Source: a virus
DNA: 23,278 nucleotides
Reading direction: 5' to 3' (one strand)
IMG/VR virus record: IMGVR_UViG_3300007541_000225
Location: 1-23,278 of that record
Shown here: positions 3,120 to 21,828 of the stretch, one piece after another
How positions within the stretch are numbered: the first letter of the stretch is position 1
Layout of the letters: each line of letters starts with the position of its first letter
Notes under the pieces: model-generated
Database searches by the model: none
What the model was told of the DNA's origin: nothing
The model's input: the letters and a program-made list of their open reading frames with translations, nothing else
Program-made: the position numbers and the translations under genes

Positions 3120-3415
3120 TGGACACCATCACAGTAAACGGCATCGAATACGTCCCCGCCAAGAAACCTACAGGCACACGCGCAGTTGTGGTTGTGGATC
3201 GCGGCTGGATATTTGCAGGCGACGTGACCCGCAAGGATGGACGCATATACATCTCCAACGCGCTGCATGTGTTCAAATGGGAAGAGTTGGGCTTCAGTGG
3301 GATGATCGACAACCCCGCGTGGGCCAAGGCCGATCTGCGGACCATCGCAGACGTGGACATTCCGGCGGGCGCTGAAGTGTTTTCCGTCCCTGTGCCGGAT
3401 GGGTGGGGGCTATGA
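3119..3415 (+). CDS. Small phage protein, DUF6948-like
   Basis: 98 residues. The pattern MDTITVNGIEYVPAK, then VVVVDRGWIFAGDV, then a strand with ISNALHVFKWEELG is the one I associate with the DUF6948 family of small beta-rich phage proteins of unknown function; the assignment is from memory. The start ATG overlaps the previous stop by one base, with GGGGAG upstream. The stop TGA overlaps the next start in an ATGA arrangement. It belongs to a tightly coupled run of small genes ahead of the exonuclease, so it is probably expressed early, but its role is unknown. Confidence 0.85.
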   Translation: MDTITVNGIEYVPAKKPTGTRAVVVVDRGWIFAGDVTRKDGRIYISNALHVFKWEELGFSGMIDNPAWAKADLRTIADVDIPAGAEVFSVPVPDGWGL

Positions 3416-3690
3416 GCCCCATCTTCTACCCCGCCGGTCACGGCGACGGACACGGCGACGGTGTCGGCTCCGGCTACGGCTACGGCTACGACGGCTCCGG
3501 CTCCGGCTCCGGCTTTGGCTATGGCTACGGCTACGACGGCTCTGGCTCCGGCTACGGCTATTATGGCTACGGCTACGGCACTGGCTACAACTACGGTTAT
3601 AGCTACGGATTTGGCGACGGCAGAGGCAACGGTTACGGGTTTGGCTACCGCACCGTCAGCACAACAGACAAGATCAGGAGAGAACTATGA
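3412..3690 (+). CDS. Gly/Tyr-rich low-complexity repeat protein
   Basis: 92 residues if translation starts at the ATG at 3412, which overlaps the previous stop (ATGA) and follows a GGTGGGGG stretch. The GTG at 3403 and ATG at 3399 are alternatives with worse context; the latter is in another frame. Residues 9-79 are almost entirely Gly, Tyr, Asp, Ser and Phe: I count 32 Gly and 18 Tyr. The 12-residue unit GYGYGYDGSGSG occurs twice exactly (21-32 and 36-47). There is no signal peptide. The C-terminus ends in a normal charged tail, TVSTTDKIRREL. The stop again overlaps the next start (ATGA), which argues that the frame is truly translated. The function is unknown. Such composition is typical of disordered or self-associating proteins. 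Confidence 0.82.
   Translation: MSPIFYPAGHGDGHGDGVGSGYGYGYDGSGSGSGFGYGYGYDGSGSGYGYYGYGYGTGYNYGYSYGFGDGRGNGYGFGYRTVSTTDKIRREL
3472..3552 (+). repeat. GGCTAC/GGCTCC hexamer repeats with a 36-bp near-direct repeat
   Basis: Two 36-bp units at 3472-3507 and 3517-3552 differ only at third codon positions (TAC/TAT, TCC/TCT) and encode the same 12 residues. They lie in a longer field of GGCTAC-like hexamers through about 3640. The silent differences suggest selection for the amino-acid repeat and not just recent slippage. Confidence 0.8.
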
Positions 3691-6125: not shown

Positions 6126-6593
6126 ATGGCCAAAAGAAAACGCAGGCACTTGCCGCAGCCAATACCAGAGATGACTGAAAAGGATGTCAAACGGTTCTGG
6201 GCGAAGGTAGATGTATGCGGCCATGATGAGTGTTGGGACTGGAAATCAACTGCCGCCGCCGTCGGATACGGTCGCATAAAAATAGCCCAGAAGCTATATT
6301 CTGCTCACCGCGTAGCGTTCTCTTTGGCCAATCCAGACGTAGACATCACCGGCAAGAAAGACGTTGTGATGCACTCCTGCGACAATCGCCGCTGTTGCAA
6401 CCCGGCCCATCTGCGTTTAGGTACTCTGCGCGACAATTTTATGGACATGGTCCAAAAGGGTCGCGGTGGAATAATTGTCAACATCAGAAACAAAGAGGCT
6501 ACTCCTCATGCTCGTCTTGGACTGCGAAGTTTATCAGAATTATTTTCTGCTTATGTTCAAAAAATTAGAGACAGGAAAGTACGCAACGATTGA
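6126..6593 (+). CDS. HNH homing-type endonuclease (HNH_3)
   Basis: 155 residues. The signature runs CWDWKS, GYGRI, SAHRVAF, then VMHSCDNRRCCNPAHLRLGT (H83, N92, H95, with paired cysteines 85/90/91) and the typical DNFMDMVQKGR helix. These are metal-dependent nicking or cleaving enzymes, usually mobile in phage genomes. GGAGG lies 4 nt before the ATG. The nuclease core ends near residue 113. The remaining tail (IVNIRNKEATPHARLGLRSL and on) runs into the polymerase gene, so the last 86 nt are read in two frames. The gene lies directly after a terminator and directly before the DNA polymerase, a usual target neighbourhood for homing enzymes. Activity seems possible, since key residues are present. 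Confidence 0.9.
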   Translation: MAKRKRRHLPQPIPEMTEKDVKRFWAKVDVCGHDECWDWKSTAAAVGYGRIKIAQKLYSAHRVAFSLANPDVDITGKKDVVMHSCDNRRCCNPAHLRLGTLRDNFMDMVQKGRGGIIVNIRNKEATPHARLGLRSLSELFSAYVQKIRDRKVRND

Positions 6594-9331: not shown

Positions 9332-9598
9332 ATGCTAGAAAAGCAAATAGAGCGAGCACTTGTACGTCGAGTGAAAGACCTTGGGGGGTTATGCGAAAAA
9401 TTTGTCTCTCCCGGACGCCGGAGCGTACCAGACCGTATTGTCACGCTGCCGGGCGGTAGGATCATATTTGTAGAATGTAAAGCCCCCGGAAAAAAGCCTA
9501 CGCCGCTGCAGGAGCGCGACCACGAAAAGCGACGGTCGCTTGGCTGCACGGTGTTAGTAATCTCAAAACTGGAAGATGTAAGCCAAATCAAATGCTAG
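9332..9598 (+). CDS. VRR-NUC domain nuclease
   Basis: 88 residues covering the whole minimal VRR-NUC fold: E7 in the first helix, VPDRIVTLPGG (D34), IIFVECKAPG (E48, K50) and TPLQERDHEKRRSLG (Q60). The family belongs to the PD-(D/E)XK group and is related to the nuclease part of FAN1. Phage stand-alone members are thought to cut branched DNA such as Holliday junctions. The stop overlaps the start of the SNF2-type helicase by 7 bp. That pairing is common in phages and suggests joint action on replication or recombination intermediates. Confidence 0.93.
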   Translation: MLEKQIERALVRRVKDLGGLCEKFVSPGRRSVPDRIVTLPGGRIIFVECKAPGKKPTPLQERDHEKRRSLGCTVLVISKLEDVSQIKC

Positions 9599-10935
9599 AC
9601 CGTAACAATCTACATGCTTACCAGAACCGCGCCGTGTCTTTCATCAAAGACCGCAAGCGGTGCGGCCTCTTCCTCGACATGGGTCTGGGCAAGACGACGT
9701 CCACACTGACGGCGGTCAGCGACCTGATCGACGACTTCCAGATACGCAAGACGCTCGTTATCGCGCCCCTGCGCGTCGCCAACAGCGTTTGGAAGCAGGA
9801 GGTCTACAAGTGGGCGCACCTCGATCACATGCGCGTCTCGGTCTGCACTGGCTCGGCAAAACAGCGTCTGGAGGGGCTGATGACCTCGGCAGACGTCTAC
9901 GTCATCAATCGCGAGAATGTTGACTGGCTCGTTAAGCACTACGGCCCCCAGTGGCCGTTCGACATGGTCATCATTGACGAGAGCAGCAGCTTCAAGAACC
10001 CGTCGACGAAGCGGTTCAGGTCACTGCGGCGCATTCTTCCGATGACGGAATACATGGTCCTGCTGACCGGCACGCCGTCACCCAACAGCCTGCTGGACCT
10101 GTGGCCCCAGATGTTTTTGATCGACTTCGGAGAGGCCCTTGGTCGCACTGTGACCGGCTACAAGCAGCGGTTCTTCGAGAGCGACTACATGGGCTACAAG
10201 TGGAACATCAGGGAAGGTGCCGCCGACAAAATCCACAGTCTGATCCAGCCCCGCGTCCTGCACATGAGCGCGGATGATTATCTCGACGTACCGCCGCGCA
10301 TAGACTTGGTTGAAAATGTCGAGCTGCCCCCCGAGGCGCTGGCGATATACAAGGACTTCGAGAAGACGCTACTGGCGGAGCTGGAGGACGGCGAAGAGGT
10401 CGAGGCGGCGACAGCGGCAGTCCTCGCCAACAAGCTCCTGCAGTTCGCCAATGGGGCAATCTACACCGACGACAAGCATAACTGGTCAGAGACGCACAAG
10501 GCCAAACTGGACGCCTTGGAGGAAATCGTCGAGGACAATCCAAACGAGACGCTGCTGGTTGCATACAACTACAAGTCGGATCTTGCCCGGTTGCAGGCCC
10601 GCTTCCCCGACGCAGTTGTCCTCGACAAAAAACAAACAACCATTGACAGGTGGAACGCCGGTGAGATTAAAATGCTTCTCGCCCACCCGGCGTCTGCTGG
10701 GCACGGGCTCAACCTGCAGAATGGCGGCAGCCTGATTGTCTGGTTCGGCCTGACGTGGTCCTTGGAGTATTACCAGCAATTCAATGCGCGACTGCACCGG
10801 CAGGGTCAAGAAAAGCCTGTCCGCATTCTGCATGTGATCGGTAGGGGAACTATCGACGAGAGAGTTATGGGCGTCCTTGCGCATAAGGACATGACGCAAC
10901 GCTCATTGTTGGCGGCACTGAAGCCGTCTAAATAG
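9592..10935 (+). CDS. SNF2-family DNA helicase/translocase
   Basis: 447 residues. Motif I is LDMGLGKTTS (29-38), motif II is IIDESSSFKN (D129, E130), motif III is LLTGTPSPN, and motif VI is NARLHRQGQEKPV (about 398-410), with NGGSLIVWFGLTWSLE before it. This is a compact, complete SF2 SNF2-like ATPase with both RecA-like lobes and no accessory domains. Such phage enzymes probably move along duplex DNA to assist branch migration, repair or replication. The ATG overlaps the VRR-NUC stop, with only a weak ribosome site, so coupling to the nuclease is likely. Confidence 0.94.
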   Translation: MLDRNNLHAYQNRAVSFIKDRKRCGLFLDMGLGKTTSTLTAVSDLIDDFQIRKTLVIAPLRVANSVWKQEVYKWAHLDHMRVSVCTGSAKQRLEGLMTSADVYVINRENVDWLVKHYGPQWPFDMVIIDESSSFKNPSTKRFRSLRRILPMTEYMVLLTGTPSPNSLLDLWPQMFLIDFGEALGRTVTGYKQRFFESDYMGYKWNIREGAADKIHSLIQPRVLHMSADDYLDVPPRIDLVENVELPPEALAIYKDFEKTLLAELEDGEEVEAATAAVLANKLLQFANGAIYTDDKHNWSETHKAKLDALEEIVEDNPNETLLVAYNYKSDLARLQARFPDAVVLDKKQTTIDRWNAGEIKMLLAHPASAGHGLNLQNGGSLIVWFGLTWSLEYYQQFNARLHRQGQEKPVRILHVIGRGTIDERVMGVLAHKDMTQRSLLAALKPSK

Positions 10936-10946
10936 AAGAGGGAAAA

Positions 10947-11285
10947 ATGAAAAACGTAAACGAGATATTGAACGAAAGAGAAAAAGTCAGCGGCAATTAC
11001 GGCGACGTTGCTCGCATGATCCAAGACACCCTGCGCCTGTGGGCTACGGGGCCAAATTGGAGCAAAGGCAAATTGACTGATCCGCAAGTGACCAGTCTGG
11101 AAATGATTGCGTTGAAAGTCACCCGCATCCTGCAGGGCGACAACAATCATGTTGACAGTTGGCGCGACATCGCGGGCTACGCGGAACTTGCCGCAATCGA
11201 AATCGAAAAGGCCGAAAGGGCTTTAGAGGAGAGCTTGCAAATTGTCGACGGGGCATTTAGCAAAATACCAAAGAAGGAGAAGTAA
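10947..11285 (+). CDS. DUF6378-like small helical phage protein
   Basis: 112 residues. The opening VNEILNEREKVSGNYGD and the later ALKVTRILQGDNNHVDSWRD followed by IAGYAELAA match what I remember of DUF6378, a helical phage family of unknown biochemistry. The conserved N-Y-G-D and the H-x-D-S-W-x-D-x-A-G-Y motif are intact. A strong AGAGGGA site lies before the ATG. It follows the SNF2 gene by 11 bp and precedes the transglycosylase by 1 bp, so it is part of the same transcript. Confidence 0.85.
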   Translation: MKNVNEILNEREKVSGNYGDVARMIQDTLRLWATGPNWSKGKLTDPQVTSLEMIALKVTRILQGDNNHVDSWRDIAGYAELAAIEIEKAERALEESLQIVDGAFSKIPKKEK

Positions 11286-11286
11286 A

Positions 11287-11874
11287 ATGAAATTAGCCCT
11301 CACACTCGCAGCAGTGATTGCATTTGTCGGCCCAGTGGCCGCGCAAGAGAATGATGCGGCAGACTTTTTCCGCAAGGACAAAAACTATTGGAGCCGCGGG
11401 CTAAAAGCCCCCGCCGTCATCGCATACAATGAGGACATCAGACATGTCCGTAGTATATCGAAGCGCAAGCAGATCGTGCGCCGCATGGTTGCCCATCAGG
11501 CCAGAAAGAAGCTGGGCAAGCGATGGGTAAAGTCAGCAGTCAAGATAGCCTATGTCGAGAGCCAGTTTAATCCGAAGGCAGTAGGCCCACGCACGCGCCA
11601 CGGCAGGGCGAGGGGCGTCATGCAGGTGATGCCAAAGTCTGCCCGCGCCATGGGGTTTAACCCGCGCCGCCTGAACGAGGCCGAGTATGGGATTGCTGCT
11701 GGCATTGCGCACATGCGTCTGTGCATCCAGAGCGGCGTGCGCACCGACGCCGAGATGTCGGCCTGTCATGTTGCGGGGACGCGGGGCTGGGCAATCCGTC
11801 TGCGTAAGCGTGCGCAACGTTACAAGAGAATTTACGTCGCCATGGTGCGCAGGGCACCCGGCTATTGGGACTAG
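11287..11874 (+). CDS. Exported lytic transglycosylase (putative endolysin)
   Basis: 195 residues from the ATG at 11287, which has GGAG 7 nt upstream. Residues 1-20 (MKLALTLAAVIAFVGPVAAQ) form a Sec signal peptide with an AxA-like cleavage site. The SLT domain has the catalytic Glu in IAYVESQFNPKAVG (E91), then RARGVMQVMPKSAR, YGIAAGIAHMRLC and SACHVAGTRGW. It would cleave the glycan strand of peptidoglycan in the periplasm. Placed next to a tiny membrane protein, it looks like the phage lysis enzyme exported by the host. A virion role is less likely, as virion transglycosylases lack signal peptides and another is encoded in the late block. Confidence 0.9.
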   Translation: MKLALTLAAVIAFVGPVAAQENDAADFFRKDKNYWSRGLKAPAVIAYNEDIRHVRSISKRKQIVRRMVAHQARKKLGKRWVKSAVKIAYVESQFNPKAVGPRTRHGRARGVMQVMPKSARAMGFNPRRLNEAEYGIAAGIAHMRLCIQSGVRTDAEMSACHVAGTRGWAIRLRKRAQRYKRIYVAMVRRAPGYWD

Positions 11875-12015: not shown

Positions 12016-12477
12016 ATGGAATTTAACACGCCGGAAGCACTCTATCAGCACTACAAAAATGTCCGTCAACGCATTGAAACGGCCTCTAGAGAGGCAGCGA
12101 TAAAGAATGGCGTCATCATACTCCCGATCAAAAAACTGCCGCCTCCGGAGCAGAAAAAGGCGGCAGAGATAGAGCAAAGCGAAGACAATGCCGTCATAGA
12201 GATGGAGCCACCAAAGCACCTTAACGATACGCAAAGGATCATGTACGAGATTGCCCTTAAGCACGGGATTCTTGTGTCAGATATGCGCGGACCTGTGCGC
12301 CAGAGGCATTTTGTGCTTGCTCGGCAAGAGGCAATGTGGGAGATTAAACGTCAGAGGCCAGACTTGTCCCTGCCCCAGCTTGGGCGCATGTTTGGCGGGC
12401 GAGATCATTCGACAATATTTCACGGGATCCGGGCGCACCAACAGCGTCTAGATTCTGGTAAAGAATTGTGCGTCTAA
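12016..12477 (+). CDS. DnaA domain IV-like DNA-binding protein
   Basis: 153 residues. The C-terminal part (about 90-145) is a clear DnaA domain IV: RHFVLARQEAMWEIKRQRPD, SLPQLGRMFGGRDHSTIFHG (signature GGRDHST, 127-133). In DnaA this domain reads the DnaA-box with its helix-turn-helix and the DHS/T loop. No AAA+ ATPase domain is present. The N-terminal 70 residues are helical and charged and are not recognised. The protein could bind phage or host origin boxes, to start phage replication, to titrate host DnaA sites, or to act as a repressor. It is the last gene of the rightward operon, ahead of a strong terminator. Confidence 0.88.
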   Translation: MEFNTPEALYQHYKNVRQRIETASREAAIKNGVIILPIKKLPPPEQKKAAEIEQSEDNAVIEMEPPKHLNDTQRIMYEIALKHGILVSDMRGPVRQRHFVLARQEAMWEIKRQRPDLSLPQLGRMFGGRDHSTIFHGIRAHQQRLDSGKELCV

Positions 12478-12580: not shown

Positions 12581-12607
12581 GCCCCGGCATTACGCCGGGG
12601 CTTTTTT
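12581..12607 (+). terminator. Intrinsic terminator between converging operons
   Basis: GCCCCGGC (12581-12588), loop ATTAC and GCCGGGGC (12594-12601) form a perfect 8-bp stem followed by six T residues (12602-12607). It closes the plus-strand operon. The T-tract overlaps the stop codon of the converging tail-fibre gene by two bases. On the minus strand no T-tract follows, so it is mainly one-directional. Confidence 0.92.
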
Positions 12608-14288
12608 AATATTCGACAATCACGACGCCAGCGGCACCTGACCGAGCAGAGGATGTTCCTGCTCCAGCTCCGCCCCCATAAGCCCTGCCGGCGGTTCCAT
12701 TTGCAGAATATGAGGCATTGGCGCTTGAGCCTCCTCCGCCAAGATACGACGACCCTCCACCACCAATTTCGAAGCCGGTGCCCGCGCCCCCATATGAGCC
12801 CGCAATATTCAATCCGCCGCCAGTCCCAATGCCTCCGGCTCCGCCAAGACCCGTAAGGTTTGGCCCACCGGCTCCGCCAGTTCCACTGCAATACGCCCCA
12901 AACGACGAAGTTCCACCAGAACTACCGGCTCCGGAAGTCGACCCCGCGCCTCCAGCGCCAACGGTTACAGCAACGGTTCCGCCGGGCGTCAATCCGGTAA
13001 TGACTTCAATGGCCGTGCCTCCTCCGCCGCCGCCAGAATATTGCGAAGATCCGCCACCGCCACCAACAACAGTCACTCGGACTTTCGTAACGCCCGCGGG
13101 AACAGTAAATGTTCCACTGGAGGTAAATACCTGCATTGAAGGGATTGTCGATGCCGCGCTTGTTTGCGTTGTCGCGTCCGGGAACTTTACGCCTCCCGAA
13201 GTGCTCTCAATGACACCTGCAACGGATAGCGGCTGCGTAGGGGCCAGAGTACCAATACCCACGCGATTTGTACTGCTATTAACGAAAAGCGTATTGGTGT
13301 CTACGGTCAAATTTCCGGAAACAATAGCCGCCGCACTTGCCGTAAATGTGCTGCTGACAGTCAACGTTCCGGTAACGGTGTCGCCAGCCTTATTCACGGG
13401 CGTATAGCCAATATTTGCAACCGCAGCCCCGGAGGCCAGCATTGAGCTGGTTATACCGCCGGTCGCTACGGATATAGTGCCGGACGTTGTTATTGGGCCG
13501 CCGGTAAGGCCAGACCCCGTTCCAACAGAAGTCACAGTTCCAGATGTTGTGGCCGCTGTTGTCTGCGTCGTTCCGTCTGGAAATCTAAAGCCACCTGTAG
13601 TGCTTTGTATGACACCGGCAACCGAGAGCGGGTAGCCGGGCGTGGCCGTTCCAACGCCAACGCGGTTATTGGCTGCGTCCACATACAGGGTGTTGCTGTC
13701 AACGTTGAGATTGCCGCTGACAGCCAGAGTGCCGCCAGACGTCGATATGCTATTCGACCCGAGCGTGACAGTCCCGTTGGTGATCGTGCCAGTCGCCGTC
13801 AACGTGGATCCGCTCCACGTCAGGCTGGATGAGGCCCCGAACGATCCGGAGGCGTTGTACTGGATTTGTGTGTTGGAACCAGCCGGGGGCGTCCTGTTGT
13901 CGTCTGCGAGGTTGATGTTGGTGCCGTCCGAGAACACCTGCGTCCGCTTACCCTGCGCACACACGACGCTCGTCCCCGCGCCCGCAGACGCGATGGTGAT
14001 CGTCCCCGCGCCAGACGTTGCGTTGTCGATGATCCATTGCCCGCCGACGCCGGAGGGGATGGTGTACGTCACGCCAGAGGCAATGCTGCCGGTGATGTAC
14101 AGGCGCATGGAGCGGTACTGGGAGGCGGTCAGCGTCGCCGACCCGGCAGTGGCATTCAACGACGTCGTCGAGCCAAGCGCCTGATCAATGACGTCCATGT
14201 CGCTGTTGACCGGGACTTCCCAATTGTCGACGTAGTCGCCATTGGCGGGCTTCTCAAGAGACTTGTTCGTTGTGTACGACGATGCCAT
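12606..14288 (-). CDS. Tail fibre / adhesin with glycine-rich tip
   Basis: 560 residues. The N-terminus (MASSYTTNKSLEKPANGDYV ... DMDVIDQALG) is a pattern often seen at the start of phage fibre proteins. The middle is Thr/Ser/Gly-rich beta structure with a 57-residue duplicated unit. The last ~155 residues are a glycine-rich domain (VVGGGGGSSQYSGGGGGG onward) ending AAGVVIVEY. Glycine-rich tips of this type are known from T-even adhesin gp38, where polyglycine helices carry variable receptor-binding loops. Here the fold is inferred from composition. It is the last gene of the leftward late operon, 10 bp after the putative ejection protein, with a TGAGGT ribosome site overlapping the previous stop. 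Confidence 0.85.
   Translation of the reverse strand: MASSYTTNKSLEKPANGDYVDNWEVPVNSDMDVIDQALGSTTSLNATAGSATLTASQYRSMRLYITGSIASGVTYTIPSGVGGQWIIDNATSGAGTITIASAGAGTSVVCAQGKRTQVFSDGTNINLADDNRTPPAGSNTQIQYNASGSFGASSSLTWSGSTLTATGTITNGTVTLGSNSISTSGGTLAVSGNLNVDSNTLYVDAANNRVGVGTATPGYPLSVAGVIQSTTGGFRFPDGTTQTTAATTSGTVTSVGTGSGLTGGPITTSGTISVATGGITSSMLASGAAVANIGYTPVNKAGDTVTGTLTVSSTFTASAAAIVSGNLTVDTNTLFVNSSTNRVGIGTLAPTQPLSVAGVIESTSGGVKFPDATTQTSAASTIPSMQVFTSSGTFTVPAGVTKVRVTVVGGGGGSSQYSGGGGGGTAIEVITGLTPGGTVAVTVGAGGAGSTSGAGSSGGTSSFGAYCSGTGGAGGPNLTGLGGAGGIGTGGGLNIAGSYGGAGTGFEIGGGGSSYLGGGGSSANASYSANGTAGRAYGGGAGAGTSSARSGAAGVVIVEY
13152..13322 (-). repeat. Tail-fibre internal repeat, copy B (57 codons)
   Basis: Encodes VSGNLTVDTNTLFVNSSTNR through FPDATTQTSAA. 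Copy A, of exactly the same length (171 nt), lies 399 bp away at 13551-13721. The copies agree at most residues, including NRVG(V/I)GT, PLSVAGVI and TTQT(T/S)AA. Confidence 0.85.
13551..13721 (-). repeat. Tail-fibre internal repeat, copy A (57 codons)
   Basis: Encodes VSGNLNVDSNTLYVDAANNR through FPDGTTQTTAA and is homologous to copy B at 13152-13322. The segment NRVGVGTATPGYPLSVAG resembles beta-structured repeats (G-I/V-G-T-x-x-P) common in fibre shafts. Confidence 0.85.
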
Positions 14289-14298
14289 TGGCGTGACC

Positions 14299-16650
14299 TC
14301 AAATGTGCTGGTTCGCTACTTCAAGGGCTTTTGCGACCTGATCGTCGCTCTCCTTGAGAAAATCCTCAGTGCTCTGACAAACCTGCTTCCGCGCCGCATT
14401 CGCCAGTGCCCGCAAGTTTACCGCACCCTTGACCGATCCGCCAGTGGCGCGGCCCGGTCGCTCAGTTGTGGGTGAGCCCTGCCCATAAGCAGTCACTGTG
14501 TTGCTTAGGATTGTGCTCATTTTATTGAACAAGCGCCCGACGGCACTGTTCTGCCGAGCAAGGTCTCCTAGTCGCTGTATGTCTCGTGGGTCGGTAGATG
14601 TCGCCAGAGGCAGTAACTTGTCGGCAATTCGCCTCTCGGTTGCATCCAGTGCGAGCTTACCCGCAGCCCCGGCCCCAGCGCCGATAGCCGCTTTAATTGC
14701 AAGTTCAGGTGAAAATTGACCCCCTAAGAACGCTCCTTCGAGAGCGGCAGCGGTAACTCCACCAGCAATTGCGGCTTTTGCGACACCCCCTTTTTCCGCA
14801 ATAAAATTAAGTTCTCTAACTTTACCAAGTAATTGTTCAGAGAGAACCTGCCCCTGTATTGCGGAATATCTCTGAGGGCCAAGAACCATTAGCGCACGGC
14901 TACGGAAATCTGGATTGTTGAACGATTTTGCCAGAGAGTTTACGCCTGTCAAACCACCAGCCGCCGTTTCAGACAAGCGCTGGGCAAACCCCGTGGCAAA
15001 CAATTCTCGCTGCTCTGGTGTCATTGTCCTGAACGCATCGGTAATTTCTTTGCGCTTGAAGCTGTTCATGTTCCCAAAGAACTTATAGCCTGCCTCCGGA
15101 GCATCAGCCGCCTTGAATGTTTCAAAAGCAACGCCCCGGGCGTTTCTGTAGCCGGGAACAGTATCGAGTGTCTTGAGTATCTGATCTCGCGCATTCTGAG
15201 CGGAAGACGCAAGCGTGTTGTCTCCCTGCCTCTTCGCAACTTCTCCAATGTCTCGAAGTTCCCGCTGCACCTGATCCCAATAAGACAAGTTTCCGTTTGT
15301 AACCCTTGGAGGAACTGCTTTTTGTCCGGGCGTAGTAACTACACCAGACGTTGTCCCTGTTGTCTGTGGTGGAACAGCGGCTTTACCCGGAGTAATGGAT
15401 GGCGAACGAATATTAAAACTGGGGTTGTTCTTTGCTGTTTCTTCTGCCCGCTTCATTGCCTGCTGAACAATTGGCCTGTCTAACAGAGAAGAAAATCTAT
15501 TTTGCGGTATGGATTGGGCGAGAGGATTAGATCGCGTTATGCTGTAGACTTGATCGCGGATAATCTTTCCGGACTGCTGCGCCAGCTCTTGTGCGCGGGC
15601 GGCATCAATTGGACCACCAAAAACATTTTGAATATTCTGTGAAAGTCTCTGCCCTGTCTCCGCCTTTCGAGCACGCAGACCCTCATTGAACATTGTCGCA
15701 GCTTCAGACGCAATCGGAGTGCGTTCAGCCATAGAGCCAAGAAGTTTGCGTGTCTCAGGACCAGCCATATCAGCAACACTAAGGGGCGAGCCAGTGCGCA
15801 TTGCTTCCCGCAACTGCTCCATAGTCATTGCTGTCTGACCGCGGCGAATATCTTCCGCAAGGGCGGCGGCTATACGTTTATTGCTCACGCCTTCGGGTGC
15901 AATAAGGCCCTTTAAGCCAGAAAAAAGTTTGCCGACTGCTCCGGCAGCAATCCCCGTTCCAATACCTCCAGCCAAAGCGCCAGTAAGTCTGCGGAACTCT
16001 TCGCTGCCCTTATCCTCAGAGGAGAGTGCGCCTAATTCAGAACCAACACCCGCCCCTGCGCCAGTAATTAAACGACCCGGTAAAGTTCGCACTGCGCCCG
16101 GCAAACCCTGCGCGGCAAATTCAGCACCCTTACCAGCAATTTTACCGGCGGTTGTTTGCGGTTCATAGGTAAGTGCCTCCGGAGCGCCAGCGGCCTTCAT
16201 TGTCGGTTTGAAAGTTTTCTCAACACCCTTGTATGTGGGCCAGTGCATGATGGGGGAAGAATACCCCTTCTTCTGCATTTCAGTCTGACTGCTTACCCAC
16301 GGAAGCGATTTTTGACCGTACTCTTCCTGTTCTTTAGGAGAAATCAAATCAAGTTTCTTAGCGAGCCACAATGCGCCAGAACGAACACCTTCTGGAACAT
16401 CCTTAGCAATAAATGTTTCTACAGAGCCGGGTCCACCCATTAGTGTTGCGGCGGCTCCCTTTGCTCCTTCCGACAATACAGATCGCCCAACATCTGACGC
16501 GGTTTCGCGAAATGTAGGGTCTGGGGGAAGTGGCTTATTTATATCTTTCAAACGTATATCGAGCGGACGAACTTCCGGTTCCGCGCTTTTTGTTTGCGCG
16601 GGGGCTGGAGCGAAAAAAGGATCTTTCAGGAGAGGATTTTCTTCGTCCAT
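14299..16650 (-). CDS. Putative internal virion / DNA-ejection protein, Gly/Ala-rich
   Basis: 783 residues. The N-terminus is Pro-rich (NPLLKDPFFAPAPAQ). Several Gly/Ala segments have amphipathic or membrane-active character: RLITGAGAGVGSELGA, GALAGGIGTGIAAGAVGKLF and AAIGAGAGAAGKLA. Long helical Gln/Arg/Glu regions lie between them. The end, RATGGSVKGAVN then STEDFLKESDDQVAKALEVA, matches a C-terminal pattern I associate with large virion proteins of podoviruses. By analogy with T7 gp15/gp16-type proteins it may form part of the channel for DNA ejection; this is inference from composition and place. GGAGGA precedes the ATG, which overlaps the stop of the transglycosylase ORF (TAATG), so the two are translationally coupled. 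Confidence 0.8.
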   Translation of the reverse strand: MDEENPLLKDPFFAPAPAQTKSAEPEVRPLDIRLKDINKPLPPDPTFRETASDVGRSVLSEGAKGAAATLMGGPGSVETFIAKDVPEGVRSGALWLAKKLDLISPKEQEEYGQKSLPWVSSQTEMQKKGYSSPIMHWPTYKGVEKTFKPTMKAAGAPEALTYEPQTTAGKIAGKGAEFAAQGLPGAVRTLPGRLITGAGAGVGSELGALSSEDKGSEEFRRLTGALAGGIGTGIAAGAVGKLFSGLKGLIAPEGVSNKRIAAALAEDIRRGQTAMTMEQLREAMRTGSPLSVADMAGPETRKLLGSMAERTPIASEAATMFNEGLRARKAETGQRLSQNIQNVFGGPIDAARAQELAQQSGKIIRDQVYSITRSNPLAQSIPQNRFSSLLDRPIVQQAMKRAEETAKNNPSFNIRSPSITPGKAAVPPQTTGTTSGVVTTPGQKAVPPRVTNGNLSYWDQVQRELRDIGEVAKRQGDNTLASSAQNARDQILKTLDTVPGYRNARGVAFETFKAADAPEAGYKFFGNMNSFKRKEITDAFRTMTPEQRELFATGFAQRLSETAAGGLTGVNSLAKSFNNPDFRSRALMVLGPQRYSAIQGQVLSEQLLGKVRELNFIAEKGGVAKAAIAGGVTAAALEGAFLGGQFSPELAIKAAIGAGAGAAGKLALDATERRIADKLLPLATSTDPRDIQRLGDLARQNSAVGRLFNKMSTILSNTVTAYGQGSPTTERPGRATGGSVKGAVNLRALANAARKQVCQSTEDFLKESDDQVAKALEVANQHI

Positions 16651-18407
16651 TATTGTCCTCCGATGAAATATCTGCTCATGCCAGATAACCCAAAACGCTT
16701 TTTGAATGCCGCGTCAACTTGTTGTGGCGTGTATTTTCCACGGCGAATGTCAGCAAGCACTTGGGGAGCCGTCAATATCATTTTTGATATAGCTTCTACT
16801 TCCTTAGTGTACTGGGACGATGGGCGCAAACGCTCAAAATCCTTTGACGCAAGGTGGCCCGTCGCCCCTTTTACTGAGCTGATATATGCTTCGTAGTGGC
16901 TTGCACGATCTATCGCCCTCTGTGTCTGCACCATTAGATCGGCAGATAGCTTCGCAAAAGATTTCGGGTTCATGCTCGGTTGCGCAATCGCTTTCTTCAA
17001 AAGATCAAGCGCCGCGTAACTTTCTTGCCCCGCCCCCTTGGCACTGGCGGCAGCCTGAAGAGCGGAAATTTTCTCATTTATTTGTTGGATACTATCGCTT
17101 TCACCAAAAGCATTGTCTCCCTTCCCAAAGACGCGGCCAAGTGTATTCAAAGCGCCAACAACTTGAGATCTTGCGTTGAAGCCAAACCCTGCTACGTTTA
17201 AGCCCTTACCCTTAGCTGCTTTGGCAAGGTTCTCGGCCAGATCGCCCATATAACGGGCGCTTTCTCTTGCCGCCTCCGCGGAAGACTTGACTGCTGTTGA
17301 ATATCTTTTTGCGGCTTCCGTGGCTATTGTGCCGGCTTCACCACCGTTTTCGACGATCTTACGATCTTCTTTAGCGACGGCAATTGTTTTATTGTCAATA
17401 AACGGTGACGCAACAGGCGTCTTCCCTGTAGCAAGTGTTTTTGAAGAAACTGCAGCGTCTTCGGTCGGTAGACCGGCTTCTTCTAATTTCTTTTTTGCTT
17501 CAGGCCCCGTGGGTACACTGCCCAAGAGCTCGGGAGCTTTGCCACTTTCAACCAAATCCATGTACTCTCCGTAGCGCATTGGCGTTCCGTTAGCGAGCCA
17601 TACGATCCGGGTCGTACCAATTACCTGAACGCTCTTCTGCACGTTACCGATAGCGATGCTACGCGCCGTCTCCGCTTGAACTGCCGCCGGCCCCTTAGCC
17701 TTCTCCTCTTCCGTCTCCTGCTTACGCAGGGCGGTGTAGGCGCTCGTGCCGCCAACAAGGCCCTCGCCGATTGCTCCGCCAAGAGTGGGGCGTGTCGAGG
17801 CCAGCATCGAGCCAATACCAGCAAGAGCGGGAACGACAAAGTTCTCTGACGTCAGGGCCTCTGCAGTATCAGGGCTGACGCCCATGCTACCGAGCAGGCT
17901 CTTGCCGCCGGTGCGCCACGGGGCCGAACGCGGAGTGTCCTTCACGAACTGGCCGGGCTCTTTGCTGAAACGGTTACGAGAGTCCGCCGAACTAATAACG
18001 TCTTTTGCAGTCTCAATTGCGCCGCGGGCTGGCGAGTCGGCGTACTTGGCGTCGATTGCCGGGTCGTAGCGACCGGCCTTGGCCATGACGTCGCGGGCGT
18101 ATTTTTCTTTTGCTGAACCGGCATTGTACGCCATCAGCGCCTCGGGGCTTGACGGATCAAGGCCGAGAGCCCGCGCCTTATTGGCCAGATAGTTTGCGCC
18201 GAACAGGATATTGGCCTGCGGGTCGCGAAGGCTCTCAGGGTCGACACCCTTCATGCCATACCCCGGATCCCGAGCGGTGCTGGGTTTAATCTGCGCCAGA
18301 CCAATCTCACCCGCGCCGCCAACAGCGCCCTTGCGGAAGCCGCTTTCCTGCGCAATCTTTGCCGCAATGATTGGCCGGAATACCAGTCTCAGCCGACGCC
18401 TTGGCAA
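16650..18407 (-). CDS. Lytic transglycosylase-bearing C-terminal part of the giant virion protein (frameshifted from 18307-21828)
   Basis: 585-codon open frame whose homologous part begins near 18371: IIAAKIAQESGFRKGAVGGA (catalytic Glu at 18347-18345), then GEIGLAQIKPSTA, ANILFGANYLANKA and ALMAYNAGS, a complete SLT domain except for its first helix. That missing helix (LQPLIAKASAETGIPA) is encoded in the overlapping upstream frame and ends exactly where this frame takes over. The possible start TTG at 18407 has no ribosome site and gives an unrelated Arg-rich leader, so independent translation is unlikely. After the domain come about 450 residues of helical sequence with Gly-rich segments (VPALAGIGSMLAS). 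The role would be local peptidoglycan opening during DNA ejection. One extra base in the sequence, or a +1 (or -2) ribosomal shift, would join the frames into about 1725 residues. Confidence 0.82.
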   Translation of the reverse strand: MPRRRLRLVFRPIIAAKIAQESGFRKGAVGGAGEIGLAQIKPSTARDPGYGMKGVDPESLRDPQANILFGANYLANKARALGLDPSSPEALMAYNAGSAKEKYARDVMAKAGRYDPAIDAKYADSPARGAIETAKDVISSADSRNRFSKEPGQFVKDTPRSAPWRTGGKSLLGSMGVSPDTAEALTSENFVVPALAGIGSMLASTRPTLGGAIGEGLVGGTSAYTALRKQETEEEKAKGPAAVQAETARSIAIGNVQKSVQVIGTTRIVWLANGTPMRYGEYMDLVESGKAPELLGSVPTGPEAKKKLEEAGLPTEDAAVSSKTLATGKTPVASPFIDNKTIAVAKEDRKIVENGGEAGTIATEAAKRYSTAVKSSAEAARESARYMGDLAENLAKAAKGKGLNVAGFGFNARSQVVGALNTLGRVFGKGDNAFGESDSIQQINEKISALQAAASAKGAGQESYAALDLLKKAIAQPSMNPKSFAKLSADLMVQTQRAIDRASHYEAYISSVKGATGHLASKDFERLRPSSQYTKEVEAISKMILTAPQVLADIRRGKYTPQQVDAAFKKRFGLSGMSRYFIGGQ

Positions 18408-21400
18408 TCAGCGGCTGCAGTTCGCGTGGAACATTGAGGGCCGTCTCTACAGCGCCCTCCGCAGGCATGTCGGGATCGACGTACAGGCCACCCGTCTGAG
18501 CAGCCTGCCGGGGAGCCAGCCCCGTGGCGACGTCCGTCGCACGCTTGTAGTCGAGCATCTCAAGGCCGCCGATGTTATGGACGGCGCTGCGGTCGCTCTC
18601 GGTCGTCATCAGGCCCATGCGGGTCTTGTTGTCGCCGTTGTTGTACTTGAAGGTATGCACCGGCTGGCCATTGAACAGGTGGCCAACGACCTCGTCGTCG
18701 TGCTTGCTGCGCGGGTCGGAAAGGAATGGCAATAGAGCAAGAAGGGCTTCAGCGCCCAATGCAGGAGCAGCGGTAGCAGCGGTAGCAGCGGTAGCAGCGG
18801 TAGCACCCAACGCTTCAGCGCCAAGAGCGCCAGCAGCGCCCGCGGCCCCTGCGCCAGCGGCTTCAGCGCCCAATGCGCCGAGACCTGCGCCTGCGGCTTC
18901 GGCGGCACCGAGACCTGCGCCTGCGGCTTTGGCAGCCCCCGCGGCCCCGGCAGCTTCAGCGCCACCGAGGATGTTACCAAGACCCGAGGCGGCCTTGGAT
19001 CCGGCGTCGTACAGAGACTTGCCAGTCTTTAGAAGATTGGTCAGTCCCGCAACCCCGCTGTCGCCACCCTGCGGACGATTGCTAGGCGGCTGCGCCGGGT
19101 TAGCCTTTGGCTGACTGGCTCCGGACTTTATCGTCTCACCCAAGAGTTCAGTAAAATCACCGGACCCAGCATTTACAGGCTTAATGGCTTTGTCTTTAGA
19201 GAAAAATTCTGCCGAGCTTTCATCGTCATTGGCGTATGGCGTCTCGTTGTCGACAAATCCTTTAGTCTGATACCCAGTACGTCCGCCGCGGGCGAGGAAC
19301 GCAAAGGCGTCTTCCGGGAATTTGGCCAGATCAATGGCACGGCTGGAGTCGCCGAGGTCAATCGGCGTATCGCTCGCGGGGGCAGTGTACATGTCTTCGA
19401 GAGAAGAGCGCGCGGCGCTCGCCGGCGCAGTCGTATTGACAGTGTTTCCGCCGGGAGCGGGTTTGGGCTGCGGGGGTTTTGAGATCAGCCCCACGTCCTG
19501 ACCAATGCCCTTACCAACCCGGTAGAGGTTCGCAAGCGCCTGACCGGTCGACGCAGCCTGCGCAAGTCCGCTGGGGCCGCGAGACGGCGGGCGTCCCGCT
19601 GTTGCCAGTTTGGCGACGGGGACAGGATTCTTGGCCATCGAGGCGTAGCCGCCACCCGAGCCGGGCGTGCTCCCGCCCATGCCAGCCGGAGACTTGCCGC
19701 CGTACATCCCAATGGGAGCGCCAACAGCGGCGAGGATTGCCTGCCACGTCGCGTCAGTCATGCCGCCGCGTGCGCGTTCGGGGCGTCCGCCCGTGCCGTA
19801 GTAGCCGGGCCGATCAACGTATCCGCCGCGAGCCCAGTTGTCAGACCAGACAGGCTCTTCAAACTTTGGCTCTTCAGGGGGCGTGATGATCATGGGCGAC
19901 ATATCGTTGCCCGCCAACTTGTCCATCAATTGCTGCCGACGCATCTGGCCGTACTGCTCGCCGCTCTCCAGTGGGCGACCATTGTACAGCGACGCAAGCT
20001 CTGCCTGCCACGACTCAGGCGTTCCAAGCGAATATCCTTCGGCCTTCGGCGCGAGCTGCGGAGCAATAGCGCCCGGCTGTATCGGGATGTTGCCGGTGAT
20101 CATCTTGGGACCAGCGAAGTCCGGAGACGTGAATGCGCCGAGGCCCTGCAGCGGAGACGCGATAGGAATGCCGCGTAGGCCAGCGGGGGCAGCAATCTGC
20201 ATGGGAGCCAGACCGCCGCCGTCAGCCTTTTTGACAGCGCCCTTGGTGGCTTCCTTGTAATCGACAGTAAGAGCCTCCGCGCCGCCGAGGCCCGGAACCT
20301 TTGCTTTTCCAACGGCTTCCGGATGTTTCTTGGCAACTTCTTGCGCGGACAACCCGATCTGCGTGCGCGGTTCGCCCTTGTAGTTGAAGCTGTAAATGGT
20401 CTGGCCGTCGTTGGTTTTACCAACTGGGCGCATGTTCTCTTTCAGACGCTCGTCCGAGAAGAAGCCCGCAGGCTGCGTCGTCGTTGTCGTGGATCCAGAC
20501 AGCGAGCCGGTGCCCATCGCAATGTTGGCAAGGAACTGCGCCAACTGGAACGGGTATGCGCGTTCCTGCTGGAACTGGTTGTATAGCGCCTGCAGGCCCG
20601 CCTGCTGCGTCTGCTGCTCTGCGGTTCCAACGCCCATCTGAGCCTGTGCGCCCGACATGGCGGCCTGCTGTGCTCCCGTGCCGAGGCTGGCAAGAAGGTT
20701 CGCCTGCTGCTGGCCAAGCCCTGCCTGCTGTGCGCCAGCGCCAAGAAGAGCCTGCCCCGTGCCAAGCTCCTGCTGATACTGCTGCTGCCCAAGGCCCGCG
20801 AGCTGCTGCGCGGCAGTGGCCCCCTGACCAAATGCGGTCTGGCCGAGATTGGCCGCAGTCTGTGCGCCAGTGATGCCCTGCCCGTAGAGAGCCTGTCCAA
20901 GCCCCGCCATCTGTTGCGCTGCGCCAAGCTGCTGACCGTACTGCTGCTGACCGAGGGCCGCCAACTGCTGACCAGCCGCCTGCTGGGCGGCGCGATTGGC
21001 CTGCTCCGCCGACAGTCCAAGGCCCTGTTGCTGCTGGGCCGTTTGCAGGGCCTGCGTGTACGCCTGCTGATAGAGGGGAGCAATCGCCTGCGCCTGCGCG
21101 AGCCCCTGTTGCCCCTGAAGAATTGCCCGCTGTATGCCAGCCCGGTCACCGCCAAATGCTCCGGCCCGGATGGCTTCGGCCTGCTGCTGCGACTGCTGCT
21201 GGCCAAACTGCTGCCCCAGCGCCCGCTGGGTCGCCTCGACAACGTTTTGTGTGTAGGGGCTCATATACTGCTGCGTCTGCAACTGCCCCGGAGAAATCGC
21301 CTGACTGCCCTGCAGAGCAAACTGTTGCGCAGCCTGATTGAGTGGGGCAGCAGCGCCAAGTCCAGCAAGAGTACCCGCGGTTGCGGCTTGATAATATGGT

Positions 21401-21828
21401 TGTGCTGCCCCCTGAGCCCCAGCAAGAGACTGCGCCGCAAATTGGTTAGCCGCTGCGCCCTGACCAAGGCCAGAAGCCAACTGCTGCTGCGCCTGCCCAT
21501 AATACGGCTGAGACGCCTGCGACGCGCCGGAGATGTTCTCGACACCTTGCTGGAATGTTGGCTGGCCAGCGTTAAACGACTGCTGTGCCACGTCGGTGGC
21601 GGCCTGATAGTAGGGCTGCGCCGCTCCAGCGGCCTGATTGATGTTATACGCCGCCGCCTGCTGCGTCGCCGTCATGGGGGCGACGAAGGCGTTGGGGTCT
21701 CCAGAATATTGTTGGAATGGCTGTTCGGCGACGGTCTCGGCGCGAGCATTTACCGCATTGTAGCGAGCAAGTACCTCCGGGGGGATCTGCACCTGCTGTG
21801 TAGTAGTTTGCGACTTGCCACCGCCCAT
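18307..21828 (-). CDS. Gln/Ala-rich giant virion protein with two S74-like segments and the start of a transglycosylase domain
   Basis: 1173 residues in this frame. Residues 1-440 are a Gln/Ala-rich helical region starting MGGGKSQTTTQQVQIPPEVL, with SPYTQNVVEATQRALGQQ and AGAFGGDRAG, features shared by internal virion proteins of many podovirus-like phages. A chaperone-of-endosialidase-like segment follows (SDERLKENMRPVG, S458, to VDYKEATKGAV). Next is a Gly/Pro/Arg-rich linker with ARGG motifs, then an Ala/Gly tract, then a second S74-like segment (SDPRSKHDDEVVG, S1037, to LDYKRATDVA). Residues from 1137 (LQPLIAKASAETGIPA) are the first helix of a transglycosylase that continues in the +1 frame near 18371. 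The last ~20 residues are out-of-frame junk ending at TGA 18307. GGAGAAA precedes the ATG. Confidence 0.85.
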   Translation of the reverse strand: MGGGKSQTTTQQVQIPPEVLARYNAVNARAETVAEQPFQQYSGDPNAFVAPMTATQQAAAYNINQAAGAAQPYYQAATDVAQQSFNAGQPTFQQGVENISGASQASQPYYGQAQQQLASGLGQGAAANQFAAQSLAGAQGAAQPYYQAATAGTLAGLGAAAPLNQAAQQFALQGSQAISPGQLQTQQYMSPYTQNVVEATQRALGQQFGQQQSQQQAEAIRAGAFGGDRAGIQRAILQGQQGLAQAQAIAPLYQQAYTQALQTAQQQQGLGLSAEQANRAAQQAAGQQLAALGQQQYGQQLGAAQQMAGLGQALYGQGITGAQTAANLGQTAFGQGATAAQQLAGLGQQQYQQELGTGQALLGAGAQQAGLGQQQANLLASLGTGAQQAAMSGAQAQMGVGTAEQQTQQAGLQALYNQFQQERAYPFQLAQFLANIAMGTGSLSGSTTTTTQPAGFFSDERLKENMRPVGKTNDGQTIYSFNYKGEPRTQIGLSAQEVAKKHPEAVGKAKVPGLGGAEALTVDYKEATKGAVKKADGGGLAPMQIAAPAGLRGIPIASPLQGLGAFTSPDFAGPKMITGNIPIQPGAIAPQLAPKAEGYSLGTPESWQAELASLYNGRPLESGEQYGQMRRQQLMDKLAGNDMSPMIITPPEEPKFEEPVWSDNWARGGYVDRPGYYGTGGRPERARGGMTDATWQAILAAVGAPIGMYGGKSPAGMGGSTPGSGGGYASMAKNPVPVAKLATAGRPPSRGPSGLAQAASTGQALANLYRVGKGIGQDVGLISKPPQPKPAPGGNTVNTTAPASAARSSLEDMYTAPASDTPIDLGDSSRAIDLAKFPEDAFAFLARGGRTGYQTKGFVDNETPYANDDESSAEFFSKDKAIKPVNAGSGDFTELLGETIKSGASQPKANPAQPPSNRPQGGDSGVAGLTNLLKTGKSLYDAGSKAASGLGNILGGAEAAGAAGAAKAAGAGLGAAEAAGAGLGALGAEAAGAGAAGAAGALGAEALGATAATAATAATAAPALGAEALLALLPFLSDPRSKHDDEVVGHLFNGQPVHTFKYNNGDNKTRMGLMTTESDRSAVHNIGGLEMLDYKRATDVATGLAPRQAAQTGGLYVDPDMPAEGAVETALNVPRELQPLIAKASAETGIPANHCGKDCAGKRLPQGRCWRRG
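18766..18801. repeat. Tandem 9-bp microsatellite, four copies
   Basis: AGCAGCGGT is repeated four times without error inside the Ala-rich region of the giant virion protein. On the coding strand it encodes repeats of Thr-Ala-Ala. It is in frame, so copy-number change would lengthen or shorten the linker by three residues. Confidence 0.9.

Follow-up and report, generated by a model that had tools for sequence, protein, structure and literature searches.

From trimeric fibres and from MYRF, ICA/S74 domains are familiar as C-terminal aids to folding. The locus described here carries two S74-like segments in the interior of a long phage protein, which raises the question of whether these segments are genuine members of the family, whether they cut the chain in which they lie, and what the protein itself does. 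The window (the whole stretch of 23,278 nucleotides that was analysed, IMG/VR phage record IMGVR_UViG_3300007541_000225) holds the ORF concerned at 18307-21828; these coordinates, already given in the original prediction, were right, while the strand is corrected to minus. Our preferred explanation, to which we give about an even chance, is that of a fused ejection protein with two ICA-type modules that most likely still cut.

18307..21828, minus strand: 1173-aa ORF, N-terminal and middle portion of a putative fused DNA-ejection (internal virion) protein (phrog_6121 and phrog_4287 matches), ended prematurely by a frameshift
20245..20457, minus strand: D1, first S74/ICA-like segment, residues 458-528 (Pfam S74, profile and fold comparison)
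18535..18720, minus strand: D2, second, degenerate S74/ICA-like segment, residues 1037-1098 (blastp/phmmer, hhalign, alignment, conservation)
18721..18828, minus strand: Ala-rich hydrophobic stretch immediately preceding D2 and containing a 9-base tandem repeat (18766-18805)

Two S74-type segments and their recurrence

Both motifs reported in the original prediction lie where it had placed them: SDERLKENMRPVG starts at residue 458 and SDPRSKHDDEVVG at residue 1037, and each is followed by an F-N/K-Y strand and by YK-x-AT. The putative scissile bond of D1 would fall between Phe457 and Ser458, with Ser458-Lys463 as its dyad, and that of D2 between Leu1036 and Ser1037, with Ser1037-Lys1042. The proposed S74 assignment was borne out directly for D1, which matches Pfam PF13884 (S74) with E=1.1e-6 and 29.2 bits, above the cutoff of 22, whereas D2 gave no S74 match above cutoff when the protein was searched against Pfam, NCBIfam and PHROGs. 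D2 is nevertheless homologous to D1: blastp aligns the two with 34% identity (E=1e-9), D2 alone as query finds D1 copies in other phages (E values from 1e-7 to 9e-6), and a profile-profile comparison (hhalign) gives a probability of 97.3%. The homology of D2 stands on these pairwise and profile comparisons alone, an iterated-profile score of 2e-22 having been set aside as partly circular, because the D2 segments of relatives may be in the model.

Both segments are far better conserved than their surroundings, with identities to three relatives of 94% (D1) and 95% (D2) compared to 56-65% in the adjoining segments, and in both of them silent changes far outnumber replacements (dN much below dS). 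The GxxAQ motif, which has been linked to trimerisation (PMC3742440), is present in D1 as GLSAQ and is replaced in D2 by GLMTT; this motif and the subsequent PEAV helix are lost from D2 in all four close relatives. Despite losing the helix and the AQ motif, the D2 of the window lineage retains S, D, R and K. Sequence comparison thus supports, well beyond chance, two S74-type (ICA-type) modules, each with a Ser-x4-Lys dyad.

Structure models of D1 and D2 were built on alignments of viral contigs only. The D1 model (pLDDT 54) consists of strands and short helices, with a short helix and then disorder at the domain end, and its comparison with a viral structure library returned 'Intramolecular chaperone auto-processing domain' proteins (E 4e-10) together with several fibre S74 domains. 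A fold search of the PDB with the same model found no match, only chromo-shadow-domain noise, and the D2 model was uninformative. A ThreeFoil match in the profile comparison was short and was rejected as spurious.

Within the explanation that we rate, as a whole, at about even, D1 and D2 would be minimal ICA modules, made up of a starting Ser-Lys dyad and a small beta-rich core and having no C-terminal coiled coil. The SDxRxK dyad motif and, probably, the beta-rich core are common to the window modules and the ICA domains of endoNF, GA-1 gp12, the T5-type LTF, Bd3182 and MYRF; these domains further have GxxAQ in common with D1, and the alignment begins at their cleaved Ser. Unlike them, the window modules have neither a C-terminal coiled coil nor a triple beta-helix stalk, and they are internal, duplicated and placed in what is probably an ejection protein rather than a fibre.

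The original prediction regarded this layout as unusual, a view that does not survive a survey of IMG/VR and GenBank: among 150 complete ORFs, which were gathered by similarity and are not a random sample, 61 have two S74 copies and none has three, and S74 is already annotated at the end of ejection proteins of phiGT1, PAE2 and other phages. The two-S74 layout is therefore a recurrent family trait and not a singular one. The first copy starts at a median of residue 307 and never close to the N-terminus, the spacer between the copies spans 130-749 aa, and the median tail beyond D2 measures 713 aa. Hydrolases recognised downstream of the second copy are 27-66 aa away from it and of four types (SLT, Hydrolase_2, Phage_lysozyme2 and GH108), and such a position ahead of hydrolases from four families fits a segment that marks a module boundary. 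Many two-copy proteins have no recognised domain after the second copy, and in single-copy proteins the hydrolase is more distant, at about 250-460 aa.

The two copies also differ in what precedes them, usually a Ser/Thr-rich stretch for first copies and a hydrophobic one for second copies; in the 20 preceding residues, KD exceeds 1 in 12 of 16 second copies compared to 5 of 53 first copies. In a domain tree, the second copies do not form one clade (7 changes, at least 4 of them forced), which suggests repeated gain, loss or exchange of second copies, the 64 columns of the tree being too few to settle the matter. Our literature search found no paper describing S74 modules within fused ejection proteins, and the main text of the phiGT1 paper does not discuss S74.

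Possible self-cleavage and the structural alternatives

In a census that used a profile beginning after the motif, so that Ser and Lys played no part in detection, both residues were kept in all 237 distinct copies and in 71 of 71 second copies, with Asp present in 236 of the 237 and only the neighbouring Arg varying more (226 of 237). This invariance favours retained chemistry. However, Asp2, Gly43 and Tyr77 are about as invariant as the dyad, and so invariance alone need not imply catalysis. The family profiles align at the dyad with the ICA domain of MYRF (7dc3), the T5-type long tail fibre (6f45) and the GA-1 neck appendage (3gud), and the PDB chain of 3gud starts exactly at the aligned SDER. 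The dyads S587/K592 of MYRF and S911/K916 of endoNF, in which the cut falls just ahead of the Ser (PMC8326128), occupy the same positions as Ser and Lys in this family, and Bd3182 is cut at the Ser of its SDxxxK (PMC10769870).

In MYRF, a C-terminal coiled coil drives trimerisation and cleavage. A long C-terminal helix or coiled coil is absent from all 201 testable copies of the family, in which at most 11 residues follow the domain before the first Gly or Pro, and we found no triple beta-helix stalk upstream of the modules. The missing C-terminal helix, the missing stalk and the loss of GxxAQ from D2 speak against the standard ICA reaction. Taken together, the sequence data make self-processing of this protein plausible but unproven.

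According to the explanation that we prefer, the fused protein would be packaged in the head, then expelled, and would build a trans-envelope DNA channel. Residues 1 to ~530 would represent the ejection protein, which other phages encode on its own, with an S74-like module equivalent to D1 at its end, and the remainder would comprise a linker, D2, a peptidoglycan transglycosylase with which to breach the cell wall, and a helical C-terminal region. The protein would oligomerise during head assembly, whereupon D1 and D2 would cut the chain just ahead of Ser458 and Ser1037 into three separate parts of the ejectosome: the ejection protein, a middle segment and a segment with the transglycosylase. 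By the figures given in PMC8402733, the ejection proteins of P22 are packaged in unequal copy numbers, about 12, 12 and 30, and a polyprotein by itself could not yield such ratios. We found no virion proteomics of any fused-type phage in the literature. In its most general form, the proposal would be that widespread phages make parts of their ejection machine as one polyprotein, which cuts itself at two internal, coiled-coil-free ICA modules by means of their own Ser-Lys dyads and so couples the release of the hydrolase segment to assembly; we consider this a tentative proposal, somewhat less probable than an even chance.

The modules may instead be non-cleaving ICA remnants that serve as folding or oligomerisation joints, the long ejection protein entering the virion uncut. 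We regard this as a serious possibility that falls a little short of even, considering that every copy is without the C-terminal coiled coil, that D2 is without GxxAQ, that D1 stays within a continuous chain in most complete relatives, and that fusing a hydrolase would be pointless if it were always cut off. What it accounts for poorly is the dyad, as a pure scaffold should somewhere tolerate Thr, Ala or Asn in place of the Ser, or Arg in place of the Lys, among the 237 copies.

A third reading divides the roles, with D1 alone cutting (or chaperoning) and the D2 of the window lineage being a decayed copy kept for a structural reason. Such decay would agree with the absence of GxxAQ and the next helix from D2 in the close relatives, with a D2 score beneath Pfam detection, and with the long branch on which the D2 of this lineage sits in the domain tree, but not with the strong purifying selection on D2 or with its retained S, D, R and K. 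On balance, we find it rather unlikely.

Identity of the fused gene and its broken frame

The 1173-aa ORF is only part of a longer gene, whose remaining portion and neighbours are as follows.

18372..18376, minus strand: frameshift, 2 bases absent compared to five relatives, within the SLT domain and ahead of the catalytic-Glu motif QESGF
16650..18407, minus strand: out-of-frame rest of the same gene, with the SLT lytic transglycosylase domain (PF01464, about 18096-18371) and a C-terminal region of ~480 aa
21872..22384, minus strand: acetyltransferase-like gene preceding the fused gene (phrog_1249, 3.3e-5), in the place of phiGT1_16 'head assembly protein'; synteny with phiGT1 and MW202675
14299..16650, minus strand: 783-aa gene (phrog_5880), next after the fused gene, where phiGT1 has its third ejection protein (P22 gp16-like), by synteny only
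12606-14288: separate Gly-rich fibre gene

At the deletion site (~18374), the relatives L002, L003, L016, L017 and L020 all carry the 2 bases and read on stop-free. The gap is the sole uncompensated frame change within a gene compared to L002 and L003, the other one, at ~23094, being intergenic, and it may be an assembly error or a genuine mutation. Because the window lacks these 2 bases, its SLT domain sits in another frame than the 1173-aa ORF, and the nominal TTG start of the 16650-18407 ORF is an artefact of the frameshift. The PF01464 match in the window (2.6e-17) starts only at profile position 16, compared to position 2-3 in the continuous ORFs of L002, L003, L016 and L017; the catalytic-Glu motif (ES) is present as QESGF in the second ORF of the window, and the SLT domain is intact in the relatives. 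The unbroken proteins of these relatives measure 1,539-1,581 aa counted from ATG and run in the order S74, S74, SLT and helical C-terminal tail, all on a single polypeptide in L002, L003, L016 and L017, of which the L002 protein is truncated by the end of its contig. A transglycosylase after the second S74, as originally predicted, is thus correct for the gene family, where relatives have it in one chain, but not for the window ORF, and the predicted fragments of about 457, 579 and 689 residues silently join two different frames. The Ala/Gln-rich N-terminal region (20500-21500 in the window) varies greatly in length among the window, L002, L003 and L016, with D1 starting at residue 458 in the window, 602 in L002 and about 275-280 in L003 and L016.

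The two ORFs overlap at this point in the window, but a functional arrangement in which the downstream ORF itself, or programmed frameshifting, supplies a separate transglycosylase is highly improbable, given that the gene is continuous in each of the five relatives that span the site, that the window is short of 2 bases, and that the downstream ORF would begin inside the SLT domain; programmed frameshifting was rejected because the relatives read through the site.

Several lines of evidence bear on the identity of the protein. The window ORF matches the 'virion structural protein' family phrog_6121 (2.7e-26) and the 'DNA ejection protein' family phrog_4287 (2.8e-7), and residues 3-344 of L003 match positions 5-386 of the 392 of phrog_4287, nearly its full length, S74 being the C-terminus of phrog_4287. 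The SLT part matches internal core or DNA transfer proteins of phiEco32-like and P22-like phages. The order of acetyltransferase-like gene, fused gene, 783-aa gene and Gly-rich fibre gene is that of phiGT1 and MW202675, the tail-tube gene lying outside the window. These matches point to a DNA-ejection protein of the P22/T7 type, here fused, in a short-tailed (P22/LUZ24-like) phage, and this identity is the first component of the explanation that we hold, taken whole, to have an even chance. S74 is usually a fibre domain, and the annotation 'tail fiber domain-containing protein' is attached to some relatives. Gene order and the ejection-protein profiles nevertheless led us to reject the idea of a receptor-binding tail fibre bearing S74 domains of the C-terminal type, to which the SLT domain, the synteny with the phiGT1 internal virion proteins and the separate fibre gene leave a very small probability.

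Comparison with known phages places the fusion in context. The proteins phiGT1_17, NYA-2014a SUFP_020, EBPR podovirus 2 gp27 and PAE2_13 resemble the window in being phrog_4287/phrog_6121-type N-terminal proteins with a short S74 module at the end, and in Sulfitobacter phage phiGT1, NYA-2014a and EBPR podovirus 2 the ejection gene lies, in the same place, directly before a peptidoglycan-hydrolase gene. In these three and in Pseudomonas phage PAE2, however, S74 ends a separate protein of ~330-370 aa, whereas the window family has one chain with a second S74; likewise, the hydrolase of phiGT1, NYA-2014a and EBPR podovirus 2 is encoded by its own gene, unlike that of the fused window family. The internal position of D1 would then reflect an earlier joining of two ejection-protein genes, and D1 would mark the C-terminus as it was before. 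The 'Internal virion protein D' of MW202675 (1185 aa) likewise joins an ejection module, a single S74 and SLT into one polypeptide, but is without the second S74. In T7, gp14, gp15 and gp16 are the products of separate genes, and they are not known to carry S74 modules. The likeness of the window family to T7 gp16, an ejected internal protein whose N-terminal lytic transglycosylase opens the cell wall (PMC8954989), lies in an ejected virion protein with such an enzyme.

Implications and other features of the window

The invariant dyad, the absent coiled coil and the recurring junction between D2 and a hydrolase are new facts, which together allow a clear and cheap test: the invariant dyad predicts virion neo-N-termini beginning Ser-Asp, and these can be sought in cultured phiGT1 or PAE2. 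A large phage family with a shortened, often double ICA in proteins acting in the head and envelope would widen the reach of this chemistry and, if the explanation is true, ejection proteins annotated as a single long chain may be several mature parts.

Elsewhere in the window, all on the plus strand, a small ORF at 3403-3690 consists of nearly pure Gly-Tyr/Asp-Gly/Ser-Gly repeats (with a 6-base ACGGCT period) and lies just before the DUF2800 exonuclease gene region, and an HNH endonuclease ORF at 6126-6593 stands immediately ahead of the DNA polymerase ORF and overlaps it. At 9332-10935, an 88-aa endonuclease ORF is followed by a 447-aa SNF2 helicase ORF, which matches just the middle of the much longer phrog_62 (1881 positions). 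A second transglycosylase-like ORF at 11242-11874, on the strand opposite to the fused gene, is probably the lysis endolysin, and 12016-12477, close to where the two transcription blocks converge, weakly matches a DnaA-like replication initiation protein.
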